From assembly GCF_002741945.1 (NCBI RefSeq), contig NZ_MDVN01000022.1, positions 310,001-374,000 of the forward strand: a DNA stretch of 64,000 nucleotides, in the 5' to 3' direction. Under the pieces are notes generated by a model. That model saw only the letters and a list, made by a program, of their open reading frames with translations, had not been told where the DNA came from and did not search any database. Source of the DNA: Gaetbulibacter sp. 4G1. Its GTDB lineage: Bacteria > Bacteroidota > Bacteroidia > Flavobacteriales > Flavobacteriaceae. The position numbers and the translations under genes were made by a program. Below, in pieces: positions 10,368 to 36,130 of the stretch; position 1 is the first letter of the stretch, and the number at the start of each line of letters is the position of its first letter.

Positions 10368-10610
10368 GTGATGAATAATTTAGGTTTCGGGTCTTCAATT
10401 TTAAATTTCTTTGGAGCAATAACTCGTTACAGTTATGGGTTGATATGGCGAACTATTTTCAGAAAACCTAAATTTACTTTTAATGAATATTTATATGGCC
10501 CAAAAAATTCAGATAATTATTTTGATCAAACTGCTCATGTTTTTAACAATAAAATAATTGGGCTAATATGCATTGGAGTGCTAATATTTTTATTAATGAA
10601 ATTCACTTAA
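10368..10610 (+). CDS. hypothetical small membrane protein
   Basis: I do not recognise this 80-residue protein. It has a Gly/Phe-rich N-terminus (MNNLGFGSSILNFFG), an amphipathic Tyr/Arg/Trp-rich middle with RKPKFTFNEYLYG, and one clear membrane helix at residues 60-78. The gene has two Met codons at the start and lies five bases behind tag, so it may be read from the tag message. Its 3' end overlaps the end of the convergent aat gene by eight bases. The YLYGPKNSDNYFD region may be a conserved soluble segment. No function is proposed. Confidence 0.6.
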   Translation: MMNNLGFGSSILNFFGAITRYSYGLIWRTIFRKPKFTFNEYLYGPKNSDNYFDQTAHVFNNKIIGLICIGVLIFLLMKFT

Positions 10611-11232
10611 TAAAAAACTCTAAAAACAAATCTCTAGAAATCTCCTCTGCACCCAAGCTTTCTAAATGTTTAGTATACACTTGGCAGTCAATAAGTTTGT
10701 AATTAGTGTTTTGTATAAATGTTATAAAACCTGCTTTACTTGCATTACTTTCTTTGGTAAACATACTTTCTCCACAAAACACTTGGTTTCCTAAATCCAC
10801 TCCATACAACCCTGCTACCAATTTATTATCTCTCCAAACTTCAACAGATTTTGCATAACCTAACTCGTGTAAATTCACATATGCTTCAATCATACTATTA
10901 GTTATCCAAGTACTAGCTTGCCCATCACGTTTTATTTTAGAACATTCTGTAATTACTTCTTTAAAGGCTTTGTTTATAGTAACCGTGTAATTGCAATTAC
11001 GCAATACTTGTTTCATGCTTTTTGAAACTTTCAGTTTTTCTGGAAACAACACAAATCTTGGATTAGGCGACCACCACAGAATAGGTTCTTCTGCTTCAAA
11101 CCAAGGGAAAACACCTTGTTTATAAGCATGTAATAGCCGCTCAACAGATAAATCGCCTCCGATAGCCAACAAACCATCTTTGGTAGCTTTGGATACGTTT
11201 GGAAACCATATGTCATCGGTTAAGAGTTGCAT
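10603..11232 (-). CDS. aat: leucyl/phenylalanyl-tRNA--protein transferase
   Basis: Aat adds Leu or Phe to proteins with N-terminal Arg or Lys, marking them for ClpS/ClpAP degradation (N-degron pathway). Family signatures are all present: GLLAIGGDLSVERLLHAYKQG, FPWFE, WWSPNPRFVLFP, and the acyltransferase core ASTWI...GYAKSVEVW...LVAGLYGV and GESMF. I place the start at the ATG at 11232 (MQLLTDDIWFPNV; 209 residues). A longer reading exists only from a TTG at 11277, and the extra 15 residues do not look like the family. The gene overlaps the convergent small membrane protein gene by eight bases. Confidence 0.92.
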   Translation of the reverse strand: MQLLTDDIWFPNVSKATKDGLLAIGGDLSVERLLHAYKQGVFPWFEAEEPILWWSPNPRFVLFPEKLKVSKSMKQVLRNCNYTVTINKAFKEVITECSKIKRDGQASTWITNSMIEAYVNLHELGYAKSVEVWRDNKLVAGLYGVDLGNQVFCGESMFTKESNASKAGFITFIQNTNYKLIDCQVYTKHLESLGAEEISRDLFLEFFIK

Positions 11233-11253
11233 TGGATTATCTGTAAAAGTAGT

Positions 11254-11315
11254 AAACCTCCAAGTTTTAATAAACAAAGAGGTTTATACAGTGTGATTCC
11301 CGTTTATACAGGAAT
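11254..11315. repeat. two inverted repeats upstream of aat
   Basis: Two stem-forming sequences lie between aat and the DUF3127 gene. AAACCTC at 11254-11260 pairs with GAGGTTT at 11279-11285. ATTCC at 11296-11300 pairs with GGAAT at 11311-11315 (loop CGTTTATACA). The second looks like the short ATTCC...GGAAT intergenic element common in flavobacterial genomes and may act as a weak terminator for the DUF3127 gene. It has no long T-run. Confidence 0.4.
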
Positions 11316-11326
11316 AACAAAATTAT

Positions 11327-11704
11327 TTAAAAAGGAAGATCGTCGTGATCATCTTCTTTTAAATCGCCAGCAGGTTCAAAAGCATTCGCTGGTGGTACTG
11401 GCGGTATGTTTTCTCCAGAAGCTTCAGCTTGTATAGCTTCAATTCTCCAACCTTGAATAGAGTTAAAATATTTAGTTTCTCCTTGTGGATTAACCCATTC
11501 TCTACCACGTAAGTTAATACTAATTTTAACTTGTTGTCCAACTTGATAACTATTTAGCAAATCTGTTTTATCTTGTACAAATTCCACCATTATGTGCTGT
11601 GGATATTGTTCTTCTGTAGTTACCACTATTTCTCTTTTTCTAAACCCATTACTTCCAAAAGTTTGAGTTTCTCCAATCATTTTTATTCTTCCTTGAACTT
11701 CCAT
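11327..11704 (-). CDS. DUF3127 protein, OB-fold-like, with SSB-type C-terminal tip
   Basis: The 125-residue protein has an N-terminal beta-rich domain (residues 1-92) with the DUF3127 pattern: MEVQGRIKMIGETQTFGSNG, then VGQQVKISINLRGREW and KYFNSIQGWRIE. The strand pattern and the LRGREW...YFNSI block resemble an SSB-like OB fold. A disordered Gly/Pro/Ala linker follows and the protein ends in EDDHDDLPF. This ending is almost the same as that of the SSB in this window (ENDDLPF, gene at 34554-35000), which in SSB is the docking tip for repair and replication proteins. That the protein binds nucleic acid and the same partners is my inference. Monocistronic or with aat downstream (95-base gap). 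Confidence 0.8.
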   Translation of the reverse strand: MEVQGRIKMIGETQTFGSNGFRKREIVVTTEEQYPQHIMVEFVQDKTDLLNSYQVGQQVKISINLRGREWVNPQGETKYFNSIQGWRIEAIQAEASGENIPPVPPANAFEPAGDLKEDDHDDLPF

Positions 11705-11760: not shown

Positions 11761-12630
11761 TTAAGACAGTAATATTTTCCATGCACTCTCAACATCTCCA
11801 AAACTTAAATAATTACGTGCTAATTTATGTTTTTCTCTATGTGTTGCTGTTTTTATATTTGGATAGCGTTCACCTAAATCTTTAACAAAAGCATTAACAC
11901 TTTCTTTTGTAGGCAATTTTTCAATGTTGCCTAACATCCCTAAATCATTTCCTGTTAAAACCATACTGTTTTTTACAAAATCAGGAAAACTATCTACTCC
12001 AATGCCTAAAGTTGATAGTGGTTTTGGTATTTCAAAAAACCCTTTTTTAGCTCGTGTATAATAACTACCTCCTGCTCTGGCTACCAAGTCTAACTTCTTC
12101 TGATTTATACCGCCTTCTTCATTTAAAACATCATCATCTATGTGAAGTTTAACAACTTCACATATAATTAAGTTTCCTGCTCCTCCTTCTGTTCCTAGTT
12201 TTACAATCTCATTCACCTTACATTCAAATTGTACAGGCGATTCAGCAACACGAAACGGTTTTACAATATCAGATTTTAGCATCGTTAAGCCTGCTTTATC
12301 AAACTCGTTAACACTTTCTGCATACTCTGTACTGCTTAGCGACATTTGATGAACCATATCATAATTCACCACATTTATAACAACTTCTTTTACAGCCTCA
12401 GCATTTTGTAAAGTATGCTTAGTTGTGTTATCTCTAACACGACGCGCAGGCGAAAAGATCATAATTGGTGGGTTTGCACTAAACACATTAAAAAAACTAA
12501 ATGGCGATAAATTTGGGTTACCATCAGCATCCAAGGTGCTTGCAAAAGCAATAGGCCTTGGAGCCACAGCGCTTAACAAATAGCTATGCAATTTCCCAGT
12601 TGAAATATCTTTAGGTTCAAACGACGTCAT
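11761..12630 (-). CDS. flavin reductase family protein (FMN-binding split barrel)
   Basis: This 289-residue protein has the flavin reductase-like domain at about residues 10-200: SAVAPRPIAFASTLDADGNPNLSPFSFFNVFSANPP in the FMN-phosphate region, and the ARRVRDNTTKHT and EFECKV-type core segments. Such proteins bind FMN and either reduce free flavin with NAD(P)H or act as flavoredoxins. The C-terminal 80 residues extend beyond the core, as in the long flavobacterial members. No flavin-dependent oxygenase gene is adjacent, so the electron acceptor is unknown. It is a single gene, divergent from the sensor kinase gene. Confidence 0.85.
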   Translation of the reverse strand: MTSFEPKDISTGKLHSYLLSAVAPRPIAFASTLDADGNPNLSPFSFFNVFSANPPIMIFSPARRVRDNTTKHTLQNAEAVKEVVINVVNYDMVHQMSLSSTEYAESVNEFDKAGLTMLKSDIVKPFRVAESPVQFECKVNEIVKLGTEGGAGNLIICEVVKLHIDDDVLNEEGGINQKKLDLVARAGGSYYTRAKKGFFEIPKPLSTLGIGVDSFPDFVKNSMVLTGNDLGMLGNIEKLPTKESVNAFVKDLGERYPNIKTATHREKHKLARNYLSFGDVESAWKILLS

Positions 12631-32580: not shown

Positions 32581-32610
32581 AAAAGCTTCTCAAAATTGAG
32601 AGGCTTTTTT
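32581..32610. terminator. bidirectional terminator between HMA lipoprotein and gldD
   Basis: AAAAGCTTCTCAA pairs with TTGAGAGGCTTTT (one G-T pair) around a two-base loop and is followed by TT on the plus strand. On the minus strand it overlaps the last bases of gldD. It fits both convergent genes. Confidence 0.75.
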
Positions 32611-33190
32611 ATTTCCAAGCCACAGTTTCCATAATATGTTTAATGTCTTTTTGCAAATAATTCGCTGCAGGAAGTATAGAGTCGTAATTAGGTTTTGCGT
32701 AGAAATATAACGACCCTGTTAAAAAATGATTAATGCTGTCTGTTATATAAAATTGAGATTGCGAAGCCGCATTACCTTCAACTTCATAAAACATTCCGTA
32801 AGTTTTTTTACTAGGATTTTCATAAACTGTTTCTAAAATTCCGTCGGCTTTTATATTATGTTTCTGAGTGAAGTTTTGCGCATCGCGCAACAAATCGATT
32901 AGGTCTTTTTTGTTACCCTCAACGGCTTTATAGGTTAAAAAAATAGTGCCCTTTAATGATGGGTATTCTAAATTAATACCATAACTTTTAGCAGATGCAT
33001 TAATAGCTTTCATCTCTACTTTTGAAGCTAAAATATTAGTTTCAAATGTAAAAGGAATATTTAAGTTTGATTCTATATACTTAGCCTTTGGGTAATCTAG
33101 TCTTAAATAAGCTTTTGGCTTTGGTACATAACTTTCACCACAGGACAGGCAAACCAATATTAATACTAATGCATAAAAATTCTTATTCAT
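32609..33190 (-). CDS. gldD: gliding motility lipoprotein GldD
   Basis: GldD is a lipoprotein required for gliding and for type IX secretion in Flavobacterium johnsoniae. The 193 residues begin with a lipoprotein signal (LVCLSC, Cys about 17), followed by GESYVPKPKAYLRLDYPKAKY, the family's most conserved stretch, and a C-terminal TGSLYFYAKPNYDSILPAANYLQKDIKHIMETVAW block. Its start codon overlaps the gldE stop (TAATG). The order mutY-ssb-gldE-gldD is the one known from flavobacteria and supports the name. Confidence 0.94.
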   Translation of the reverse strand: MNKNFYALVLILVCLSCGESYVPKPKAYLRLDYPKAKYIESNLNIPFTFETNILASKVEMKAINASAKSYGINLEYPSLKGTIFLTYKAVEGNKKDLIDLLRDAQNFTQKHNIKADGILETVYENPSKKTYGMFYEVEGNAASQSQFYITDSINHFLTGSLYFYAKPNYDSILPAANYLQKDIKHIMETVAWK

Positions 33191-34494
33191 TAAGTTCTAG
33201 TTAATTTAATGCGTTTAATACGTTTTTTATCTAAGGCTTCAATAGTAAAAACGTAATTTTCAAAATTTATTTTACTATTTAGTTTAGGAAAACTCTTTGA
33301 TATTTCCAAAACAAACCCTGCAATGGTTTCAGCTTCGCCTTTGTTATCTTCAAAAACAGAGTCGTCTTCAACCTTAACAACCTTATAAAAATCTTTTAAC
33401 GCTGTTTTACCCTCAAACACATAGTTATTCTCATCAAGTTTTGAGTACATCAAATCTTCATCATCAAACTCATCACTAATATCACCAACAATTTCTTCAA
33501 TTATATCTTCTAGAGAAATCAACCCAGAAGTTCCTCCATATTCATCTACAACAACAGCTAAATGCACTTTTTTCTCTTGAAACTCCGCCATTAAATCGTC
33601 TAACTTTTTATTCTCTGGCACAAAGAATGGTTCGCGCAATAATGTAGACCAATCAAATTGTTTTCTATCTATATAAGGCAATAAATCCTTTACATACAGA
33701 ATCCCTTCAATGGTATCAATATTATCTTTAAAAACTGGAATTCTTGAATATCCATTAGCAATTATTTCAGGCATAATTTCAGCATACCTTTGCTCTATAT
33801 TAAGTGCAAAAATATCTATTCGAGGGCGCATAACTTGTTTTGTATCTGTGTTTCCAAAGGACACAATACCTTGCAATATTTTTTGTTCTTCTTTGGTGGT
33901 ATCGTCTTCGCTTGTAAGTTCTAAAGCTTGAGATAATTGGTCTACACTTAAGTTAGATTTTTGTTTCCCTAGTTTTTTATGAATTGCTAAAGTAACACCT
34001 CGCATAGGCATGCTAATTGGAGTTAATAACACGTCTAAAACACGTAATGGATACGCCATAAAAGAGGCGAATTTCAACTTATTTCTACTGGCATAAATTT
34101 TAGGTAATATTTCGCCAAATAATAGTATAAGAAAGGTTACAATTATTACTTCTATCGTAAATTTTAATATTGGAGAAGTAATAGACTCAAACATATTGCT
34201 ACCTAAATAAGCAAATAAAATAACAATGGCTATGTTAATAAAGTTGTTAGACACTAATATGGTAGCCAATAACTTTTTTGGGTGTTCTAAAAGTTTAGCA
34301 ATGATTTGAATACGTTTCGATTTTACTTCTAAGCCTTCTTCAATATCGGTTCTTGTAAGTGAAAATAATGCTACTTCGGCACCAGAGATTAGTGCAGAAC
34401 AAATTAAAAGCAAAAACAATAAAGCAAAACCGCTAACAACTGAAAAATCAATTGCAGTAAGTAATGTTATAAAACTCGCGGGATCAGGATCCAA
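33190..34494 (-). CDS. gldE: gliding motility-associated protein GldE (CNNM/CorC-HlyC family)
   Basis: The 434-residue membrane protein has a DUF21/CNNM domain of three or four helices (about 10-190), two CBS domains (about 215-335, with RPRIDIFALNIEQRY and HLAVVVDEYGGTSGLISLEDIIEEIVGDI), and a C-terminal CorC_HlyC domain (about 345-430). Relatives transport or sense Mg2+; GldE acts together with GldD in gliding, where extra GldE can suppress gldB or gldD defects in F. johnsoniae. It overlaps gldD by one base and lies 59 bases after ssb on the same strand. Confidence 0.94.
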   Translation of the reverse strand: MDPDPASFITLLTAIDFSVVSGFALLFLLLICSALISGAEVALFSLTRTDIEEGLEVKSKRIQIIAKLLEHPKKLLATILVSNNFINIAIVILFAYLGSNMFESITSPILKFTIEVIIVTFLILLFGEILPKIYASRNKLKFASFMAYPLRVLDVLLTPISMPMRGVTLAIHKKLGKQKSNLSVDQLSQALELTSEDDTTKEEQKILQGIVSFGNTDTKQVMRPRIDIFALNIEQRYAEIMPEIIANGYSRIPVFKDNIDTIEGILYVKDLLPYIDRKQFDWSTLLREPFFVPENKKLDDLMAEFQEKKVHLAVVVDEYGGTSGLISLEDIIEEIVGDISDEFDDEDLMYSKLDENNYVFEGKTALKDFYKVVKVEDDSVFEDNKGEAETIAGFVLEISKSFPKLNSKINFENYVFTIEALDKKRIKRIKLTRT

Positions 34495-34553: not shown

Positions 34554-35000
34554 TTAAAATGGGAGATCATCATTTTCTTCGCCAACAGGTTTAGTTTCTT
34601 CAGATTGTTTAGCTACAGGTGTTTGAGCTATAGCACTACTAGCTGCATTATTTTCGCTTTCTTTTTTAGTTGATAAAAACGTAAAATCGGTACAGTGAAT
34701 CTCAGTTGAATACCTATCTGCACCTTTATCATCTTGCCATTTTCTGGTTTTCAATCTACCTTCAATATAAACTTTATCTCCTTTGCTTAAATATTTTTCG
34801 CAAATTTCGGCACCTTTATTACGTACCACTATATTATGCCATTCGGTATTTGTAATACGCTCGTTAGTTTGTTTGCTTGTATAAGTTTCGTTTGTAGCCA
34901 ACGGAAAACGTCCAATACATCCGCCTCCTTCAAAGTAATGCATTTTAACTTCATCTCCTAAATGCCCTATAAGCATTACTTTATTTAACGTTCCAGACAT
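34554..35000 (-). CDS. ssb: single-stranded DNA-binding protein
   Basis: SSB coats single-stranded DNA in replication and repair. In 148 residues the OB fold covers 1-112 (GTLNKVMLIGHLGDEVKMHYF, EWHNIVVRNKGAEICEKYLSKGDKVYIEGRLKTRKW). A flexible linker follows and the acidic tip ENDDLPF binds partner proteins. The DUF3127 protein at 11327-11704 has nearly the same tip. The gene lies between mutY and gldE on the same strand; the 89-base gap after mutY contains no clear terminator. Confidence 0.96.
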   Translation of the reverse strand: MSGTLNKVMLIGHLGDEVKMHYFEGGGCIGRFPLATNETYTSKQTNERITNTEWHNIVVRNKGAEICEKYLSKGDKVYIEGRLKTRKWQDDKGADRYSTEIHCTDFTFLSTKKESENNAASSAIAQTPVAKQSEETKPVGEENDDLPF

Positions 35001-35089: not shown

Positions 35090-36130
35090 TCAAAAATTAA
35101 ACGCATCAATAAAATTGCTAATTATAATAGGCACTGGAAAATCGCGAATTTCATCAACTAAAATTCCGTTAACATTCAGAGTGTCTATATTTATTATCCA
35201 AAATTTAGTATATAAATGCTGGTGCGATAATTTGTGAATAATTACGTCCTTATTATATAACACCAATTCAAAAGATCTATTTTTTAATAAATGGTGTGAT
35301 TTTATATAATTTTTAAATGAGCCATTGCTTTGCTCTCTAGTAGTTTCAATCAAAGGAAATTGATATAAATTTTGCCAAATGCCCTTACCTTCTCGCTTCT
35401 CTAATATTGTTTTCTGGTCTTTTGAAATAAATACCAAGAAATTAAAATGCCTTTTTTTCGCTTTTGCGGATTTAATTTTAAATGGTAATTCATGTATTCT
35501 GTTTTTATTATAAGCCATGCATCCACTATTTAAGGGACAAATATTGCAATCTGGATTTTTTGGTCTGCATTGTACAGCTCCAAATTCCATAATAGCTTGA
35601 TTAAATTCTGCTGGGTTTTTTTTATCAATTAGCTTTTGAGCCAAATCTTTAAACTCCTTTGCTCCCTTCGAAGAATTTATAGGTGTATCAATTTCAAAAT
35701 ATCTAGACAGCACTCGATAAACATTGCCATCAACCACAGCCGTATTTTCGTTAAAACAAATAGACGCAATGGCGCTAGCAGTATAATCACCAACTCCTTT
35801 TAATTTTAATAAGTCTTTATAGTTATTTGGGAAAACTCCATTTAAATCACTAACAATATGTTTTGCGGTTGTATGTAAATTTCTAGCCCGAGAATAGTAA
35901 CCAAGCCCTTGCCATAATTTTAACACATCGTTTTCTTTGGCATTGGCTAAATCAAAAACAGATGGGTATTTACTAACAAATGCTTCGTAATAAGGTAACC
36001 CTTGCTTCACTTGCGTTTGTTGTAAAATAATTTCAGACAACCATATATAATAAGGGTCTTTAGTTTGCCTCCAAGGCAAAATTCTCTTATTATTTGAATA
36101 CCAGCGAGTTACTATTTTTGTAAATATCAT
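35090..36130 (-). CDS. mutY: A/G-specific adenine glycosylase
   Basis: MutY removes adenine paired with 8-oxoguanine. The 346 residues show the catalytic Glu region LSEIILQQTQVKQGLPYYEAF (from about 30), helix-hairpin-helix LKGVGDYTASAIASICF (about 108-124), the Asp-containing VDGNVYRVLSRYF, and the [4Fe-4S] ligands CRPKNPDCNICPLNSGC (about 193-209). The C-terminal NUDIX-like domain (about 230-340, KREGKGIWQNLYQFPL) recognises 8-oxoG. It heads mutY-ssb-gldE-gldD. It diverges from the HU gene. Confidence 0.96.
   Translation of the reverse strand: MIFTKIVTRWYSNNKRILPWRQTKDPYYIWLSEIILQQTQVKQGLPYYEAFVSKYPSVFDLANAKENDVLKLWQGLGYYSRARNLHTTAKHIVSDLNGVFPNNYKDLLKLKGVGDYTASAIASICFNENTAVVDGNVYRVLSRYFEIDTPINSSKGAKEFKDLAQKLIDKKNPAEFNQAIMEFGAVQCRPKNPDCNICPLNSGCMAYNKNRIHELPFKIKSAKAKKRHFNFLVFISKDQKTILEKREGKGIWQNLYQFPLIETTREQSNGSFKNYIKSHHLLKNRSFELVLYNKDVIIHKLSHQHLYTKFWIINIDTLNVNGILVDEIRDFPVPIIISNFIDAFNF

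Follow-up and report, generated by a model that had tools for sequence, protein, structure and literature searches.

DUF3127, a probable second SSB-type protein bearing the SSB tip in Gaetbulibacter sp. 4G1 and other Bacteroidota

The DUF3127 protein of Gaetbulibacter sp. 4G1 ends ...KEDDHDDLPF and the canonical single-stranded DNA-binding protein (SSB) of the same window, by which we mean the whole 64,000-nucleotide stretch analyzed, ends ...GEENDDLPF, raising the question of whether DUF3127 acts as a second SSB. SSB is regarded as a hub that covers single-stranded DNA (ssDNA) and uses its C-terminal tip to bring in the enzymes of genome maintenance; in E. coli, losing this tip or its Phe is lethal and leaves SSB unable to bind its partners (PMC10164576). 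From the analyses below, we consider it probable that DUF3127 serves as another SSB, able to bind ssDNA and to recruit the partners of SSB, and that it is the main tip carrier in Weeksellaceae, alongside DnaB. The features concerned are as follows.

11327..11704, minus strand: DUF3127 gene (open reading frame; PF11325, E 4.6e-32; product 125 aa)
11435..11704, minus strand: OB-fold domain of DUF3127, residues 1-90 (AlphaFold2; best Foldseek and VIA-align matches SSB and PriB)
11345..11434, minus strand: predicted disordered linker of DUF3127, approximately residues 91-120 (pLDDT about 50)
11330..11344, minus strand: SSB-type C-terminal tip DDLPF of DUF3127 (sequence; stop codon at 11327-11329)
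10603..11277, minus strand: aat, leucyl/phenylalanyl-tRNA-protein transferase, downstream of DUF3127 (TIGR00667)
11761..12630, minus strand: gene upstream of DUF3127, presumably flavin-reductase-like (conserved as a neighbor in tblastn; no family match in an NCBIfam search)
34554..35000, minus strand: canonical long SSB, 148 aa, with its own DDLPF tip at 34557-34571 (open reading frame; PF00436, E 4.4e-30)

Tip-bearing SSB-type proteins are already known as a kind, and S. aureus SsbB and SsbC (the latter in PMC5945547), like the short SSB of Bacteroidota, are second SSB-type proteins within one genome, as DUF3127 would be; DUF3127 differs from these short paralogues in forming a separate sequence family and, compared with the tipless Bacteroidota short SSB, in keeping the tip. 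The Gaetbulibacter genome itself encodes such a protein outside the window (G000:C21:916924-917229), a second PF00436 SSB that is short, tailless and tipless, ends ELLMLGK and resembles the core SSB of Weeksellaceae. A 102-aa SSB of P. torquis without the last residues is noted and then set aside in PMC3991886, and DUF3127 itself appears in PMC8004638. Our searches on the SSB tip, SSB paralogues in Flavobacterium, SSB in Chryseobacterium and Weeksellaceae, and the DnaB acidic C-terminus in Bacteroidetes, which covered few subscription journals, returned nothing on the question of a DUF3127 tip, and no published report of a conserved tip in host DUF3127 or of an SSB-to-DUF3127 handover in Weeksellaceae was found among them. 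The preliminary description of this locus knew of no described function for DUF3127, which holds for experiments as far as searched, although both PHROGs and the RefSeq records of phages already name phage homologues SSB.

Family assignment and predicted fold

The window protein belongs to DUF3127, matching PF11325 at 110.5 bits over residues 2-89 (Pfam cut-off 27 bits), and is not recognized by the Pfam model of canonical SSB, with 13.9 bits against PF00436 (cut-off 26 bits). PHROG 4932, 'single strand DNA binding protein', matches it along its full length, tip included (E 4.6e-47, residues 1-125), and is the same family; its members are phage proteins named by annotation, whereas the window gene lies at a chromosomal, aat-linked locus.

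An AlphaFold2 model, built from the window protein and 49 viral-contig homologues, has a mean pLDDT of 81 and a pTM of 0.58, with blocks of pLDDT 85-96 across the first 90 residues, predicted to form a barrel, followed by a disordered tail. The predicted strands span positions 2-9, 20-29, 36-42, 57-70 and 76-89 and the helix 43-51 (numbering of the full protein minus 1). Both the disordered linker ahead of the tip and the OB-like fold proposed in the preliminary description are thus borne out by the model, which is closest to SSB and PriB. All 50 matches listed by Foldseek against the PDB are SSBs (E from 2.0e-5, 46 of them at E<=0.001), with TM-scores mostly of 0.4-0.6. The top VIA-align matches are SSB and PriB with Z up to 8.1, a value that is modest alone and reachable by chance arrangements; they include K. 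pneumoniae SSB 7f2n_B (Z 7.5, rmsd 2.0 over 72 residues) and PriB chains (Z 8.1 and 8.0, rmsd 3.0 over 71-72), and the list also contains a few trypanosome editing OB proteins. Profile-profile alignment places DUF3127 with SSB at a probability of 90% and E 1.5e-6 over only 52 columns, and among BFVD viral models the nearest named ones are DUF3127 and SSB proteins. No solved DUF3127 structure was found by sequence search. The Foldseek matches agree with the SSB profile alignment and with weak cross-matches between HMMs, and together they make an SSB-superfamily fold likely for DUF3127.

DUF3127 is predicted to resemble canonical SSBs such as E. coli SSB and FpsSSB of Flavobacterium psychrophilum in its OB core, and resembles them in having an acidic tip ending PF after a disordered linker, with further likeness in the profile alignment over the last two strands and in an exchange of gene order in phages; it differs from them in scoring below the PF00436 cut-off, in having its own family, PF11325, and in aligning over 52 columns only. 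Four aromatic positions of the OB domain are nearly invariant among 118 host loci (aromatic fraction 1.00 at W86 and Y79, 0.94 at W70 and 0.92 at F80), and these residues are plausible candidates for base stacking.

The VIA-align scores also invite comparison with PriB, which DUF3127 resembles as a short single OB-fold of the SSB type (Z about 8). As a PriB-like primosome protein, DUF3127 would be an OB-fold derived from SSB and would link PriA to ssDNA at replication restart, its tip holding it at SSB-coated forks with no SSB role. PriB, however, is without the SSB C-terminal part (PMC8509808), whereas the window protein ends DDLPF and most DUF3127 homologues have the tip, and it was SSBs that made up all 50 Foldseek matches listed. 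We regard a PriB-like role as unlikely, an estimate that also takes in the phage evidence given below.

Conservation of the acidic tip

The shared DDLPF ending reported in the preliminary description was confirmed, and it is rare: across the 3.89-Mb genome the pattern DD[LIVMF]PF followed by a stop codon occurs at two sites only, in DUF3127 and in the window SSB, and the same pattern read backwards as a control occurs at none. Relaxing the pattern to [DE][DE][LIVMF]PF-stop brings up two more sites in this genome, with open frames of only 7 and 12 codons. To assess conservation, we defined a tip as a C-terminal PF with at least two D/E among the preceding six residues and examined 118 host loci (117 genomes), a subset of the 218 genomes, out of 392 searched, that score above the Pfam cut-off, omitting extra copies in G290, G232, G340 and G373, a split gene in G077 and a contig-edge copy in G257. 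The tip is present in 114 of the 118 DUF3127 proteins and in none of the 634 other closed ORFs of at least 100 aa on both strands of the same loci. Among loci from named genomes (the best 80 of 569, an uneven sample, mostly Weeksellaceae) it is found in 80/80 DUF3127 proteins and 0/670 other ORFs. Viral homologues carry it as well, in 70 of 79 closed IMG/VR loci (the best 80 of 180, less one with an open-ended ORF; 14 of 821 other ORFs) and in 11 of 14 named phages (3 of 183 other ORFs), two of the remaining three phages ending SNDLPF. The genome-wide search and the ORF nulls rule out chance or an annotation artifact as the source of the tip. Of the two results that the preliminary description had named as refuting it, a tip not conserved among homologues and a fold unlike OB, neither was seen, the tip being conserved in both hosts and phages.

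Of the four tipless host loci, three belong to genomes of one group (f13) and the fourth is an additional copy in G045, a genome that has the tip on its main copy. The f13 group presents the reverse of the handover described below, in which the final PF is lost from DUF3127 (three of three genomes read) and the tip is kept on the SSB, as DDDLPF, in G001.

If both proteins docked with the same partners, their tips might be expected to vary together. We hand-paired DUF3127 and SSB from 60 genomes, choosing the long PF00436 protein where present and leaving out G012, G281 and G325 (treated as Weeksellaceae), G024 and G220 (no SSB) and G091, and obtained 54 pairs; for one of these genomes, G269, we read two of the four PF00436 genes. 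Both proteins bear the tip in 50 of the 54 pairs. In the remaining four, the strict tip is lacking on the SSB read in G007, G033 and G269 and on DUF3127 in G001, and no pair lacks it on both proteins. The residue before PF (DUF3127/SSB) in the 50 pairs is Leu/Leu in 39, Leu/other in one, other/Leu in two and other/other in eight, a covariation with a Fisher p of 7e-7 that is overstated by the separate counting of related genomes. Covariation of this kind is as shared docking pockets would give, and docking of the same partners by DUF3127 is supported, indirectly, by this shared residue pattern and by genomes in which the tip is on DUF3127 and none was found on PF00436.

The tip by itself is insufficient to make an SSB, since helicases and unrelated proteins in these genomes bear such tips. 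In the T7 replisome, the SSB (gp2.5) and the helicase (gp4) have acidic C-terminal tails that resemble each other and finish with an aromatic residue, a parallel to the tips of DUF3127 or SSB and of DnaB, the proteins themselves being unrelated. Near DUF3127 in phages, primase/helicase-type or DnaB-type proteins also have tips, for example DDNSDVPF and NDDLPF (L178:7441-9264, L476, L478, L036, L091, L104 and others); all three tip hits in the phage null look like proteins of these types, as do most of the 14 in the IMG/VR null, by eye. SSB-type tips were also seen on unrelated proteins in L538 (G118; kinase-like), L541 (G029), L543 (G053; a Hypoth_Ymh/TIGR02391 protein), L546 (G182), L554 (G338) and L382 (G325), and it is a guess that some may be defense proteins exploiting the same docking pockets.

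Distribution and exchange of gene slots in phages

PF11325 matches above the cut-off occur in 218/392 Bacteroidota genomes, not only in the flavobacteria of which the preliminary description spoke, and in one of 14 control genomes, a Bacteroides. The count is 218 rather than 238 after weak matches at E of about 0.002-0.01 (in f17 and a few others) were rejected, most of the frames shown there being 669-685 aa. With 218 of 392 genomes above the cut-off, many Bacteroidota lineages evidently manage without DUF3127. The SSB family was found in 389/392 genomes; of the three without a match, G024 and G220 carry DUF3127 and G136 lacks both families. These are probable assembly gaps, and the absence is discounted because these assemblies comprise 50 to 210 contigs and G204, of the same genus as G220, has an SSB. 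The gene aat adjoins DUF3127 in 99 of 198 host loci, a sample weighted toward Weeksellaceae, and the aat-linked loci of known group are from Flavobacteriaceae or Weeksellaceae. Beside its main copy, G373 has three further divergent DUF3127 copies (C1:403464, 846972, 1713875), which are perhaps prophage-borne, and homologues were also seen on four plasmid records (H41-H44) from Hymenobacter, two Bacteroides and Phocaeicola.

DUF3127 occurs in 124 phage records, with GenBank and RefSeq copies of one phage counted separately, of which 119 are named after Flavobacteriaceae hosts and five have unnamed or uncertain hosts, and in 180 IMG/VR stretches. In a tree of host and phage DUF3127 the two kinds of rows mix, with 15 changes, at least three of which are forced by well-supported branches; we claim no direction of transfer because many forks are poorly supported. 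The phage copies sit in replication/recombination modules, an annotated RecT, Erf, RecE, NinG or RusA gene lying around DUF3127 in 13 of the 14 named phages, several of which are close relatives.

The phage evidence is strongest in related phages in which DUF3127 and canonical SSB occupy one gene slot. Flavobacterium phages Fpv5 and FL-1 have a NinG-like gene, then one or two small genes, then DUF3127; in phage tant8-1 a NinG-like gene and two small genes are followed by a PF00436 SSB ending HDDLPF. The NinG-like genes of Fpv5 and FL-1 are 62% and 67% identical to that of tant8-1, and the flanking genes of the three loci are homologous on both sides, partly rearranged. FCL-2 had been considered as the counterpart of FL-1 in this exchange; the stretch taken from it has no annotated SSB, and tant8-1 was used instead. 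A PF00436 match above the cut-off is present in only one of 49 DUF3127-bearing phage or viral records, with five more below it; this scarcity is weak evidence because few phages match an SSB query at all (1548 of 50,697 phage records with one query).

This exchange with canonical SSB points to an SSB role for DUF3127 rather than a PriB-like one, and it also bears on the view of DUF3127 as an RNA-binding or cold-shock-like OB protein whose tip serves something other than SSB partners. OB-folds also bind RNA, as is generally known, the neighboring aat concerns protein turnover and not DNA, and a weak, non-significant similarity to IF3 was seen, but the recombination and replication context in phages, the shared slot and the fold matches to SSB make an RNA-binding role highly improbable. 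A different possibility, raised in part by the preliminary description, which proposed an SSB-like accessory or competitor, is that DUF3127 acts as a decoy, its tip titrating SSB-interacting enzymes off SSB without coating ssDNA and phages using it to redirect host enzymes. Such a role would fit the tip common to both proteins and the abundance of phage copies (124 phage records, 180 IMG/VR stretches). Conserved aromatic positions in the OB domain count against it, as does the apparent absence of any tip-bearing PF00436 SSB to compete with in 15 of 25 Weeksellaceae genomes, described next, and we give it very little weight; the SSB-like half of the earlier proposal is supported by fold and tip, and no evidence particular to the competitor half was found.

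Tip handover in Weeksellaceae

The 25 Weeksellaceae genomes with a PF00436 match, for all of which the best-matching SSB is short and tipless, comprise eight genomes of group f2 and 17 of 18 named genomes, two sets that may overlap; the eighteenth, G435, a 1.5-Mb MAG, has no PF00436 match and was excluded. The named genomes represent Chryseobacterium, Elizabethkingia, Kaistella, Cloacibacterium, Riemerella columbina, Halpernia, Planobacterium and Bergeyella. In all eight f2 genomes the best PF00436 protein is tailless and ends ...GGK or ...SNK, and in all 17 named genomes with a match it is tipless. DUF3127 ends DDLPF in every one of these Weeksellaceae genomes. The Flavobacteriaceae outgroups Aquimarina, Flavobacterium and Aequorivita carry both SSB forms, the long one ending DDDLPF, NDMPF and DDLPF, respectively.

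A divergent extra SSB with a tip is present in two of the eight f2 and eight of the 17 named genomes; with 10/25 genomes so equipped, DUF3127 is not always the sole SSB-fold tip carrier in Weeksellaceae. For the other 15 of 25 the search brought up no PF00436 protein with a tip; left unread were a further match in G443, another in G444 and a broken one in G434. A scan of the eight f2 genomes for [DE][DE][LIVMF]PF-stop in frames of at least 100 codons, in which every site ending at a stop was read and which misses other tip forms and from which matches with TGG as the last codon were discarded, recovered DUF3127 in eight genomes, DnaB in seven, the extra SSB in two and, in one, a 148-aa protein matching no known family; one of the seven DnaB assignments (L341) is confirmed by Pfam and the rest are by likeness. 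The f2 DnaB tips are in L341, L342, L343, L372, L377, L381 and L383, and DnaB tips were also seen in some other Bacteroidota (L539 in G304, Pfam-confirmed; L545 in G053; L550 in G049), the forms observed being DDDDFPF, EDFPF, DDMPF, DDDVPF, DDEVPF and EEDMPF.

The loss of the tip-bearing ssb in Weeksellaceae is visible in gene order. In the window, the canonical SSB gene belongs to a hu-mutY-ssb-gldE-gldD block with these neighbors:

35090..36130, minus strand: gene that we take to be mutY, anchor of the block (synteny in other genomes)
33190..34494, minus strand: presumed gldE-like gene after ssb (synteny)
32609..33196, minus strand: gldD lipoprotein gene (PF25593 GldD_lipo, E 7.3e-65; tblastn)

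The order hu-mutY-ssb-gldE is present in all five genomes examined, the window's included, of group f1, which is Flavobacteriaceae by the host/phage DUF3127 tree; the block recurs in G033, and mutY-ssb is retained in G002. At none of 14 Weeksellaceae mutY loci (L523-L537) does ssb lie within 1.5 kb of mutY, and in eight of these loci the distance downstream from mutY to the start of a gldD homologue is 45-287 bases, in a place filled in the window by ssb, gldE and gldD; with gldD directly after mutY, these eight loci also lack gldE there. G146, of group f8, has no ssb beside mutY, yet has a tip-bearing SSB elsewhere.

A second, separate handover case lies outside Weeksellaceae in G007 (group f4), whose sole PF00436 SSB has NPEDNE as its ending, the two alternative frames immediately beyond it encoding no tip either, and whose DUF3127 ends GDDLPF. 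The evolutionary rate of DUF3127 in Weeksellaceae gave no clear difference (36 and 3 genome pairs).

Taken together with the fold and phage evidence, these distributions suggest how DUF3127 might work as a second SSB. Its SSB/PriB-type OB-fold would bind ssDNA, and the flexible linker would connect this domain to the acidic DDLPF tip, which may dock into the same pockets of SSB-interacting enzymes as the SSB tip does. In Gaetbulibacter, DUF3127 would be an accessory to two other SSBs, one with a tip and one short and tipless, and could deliver to ssDNA the same enzymes of repair, recombination or restart; in Weeksellaceae, where the core SSB is tipless, it would take over recruiting together with the DnaB tip. 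More tentatively, and with slightly less than even confidence, we propose that Weeksellaceae have a split SSB system, in which ssDNA is coated by an SSB without a tip, while the tip that recruits has moved to DUF3127, backed by that of DnaB.

With DUF3127 as another OB protein whose tip is conserved across Bacteroidota, partner recruitment may have at least two sources in these bacteria, and a domain-of-unknown-function family found above the cut-off in 218 of the 392 Bacteroidota genomes searched gains a testable function. The tipless canonical SSB of Weeksellaceae is a natural experiment on separating coating from recruiting; if the split system is true, living bacteria can uncouple the two activities, and DUF3127 would be expected to be essential in this family.
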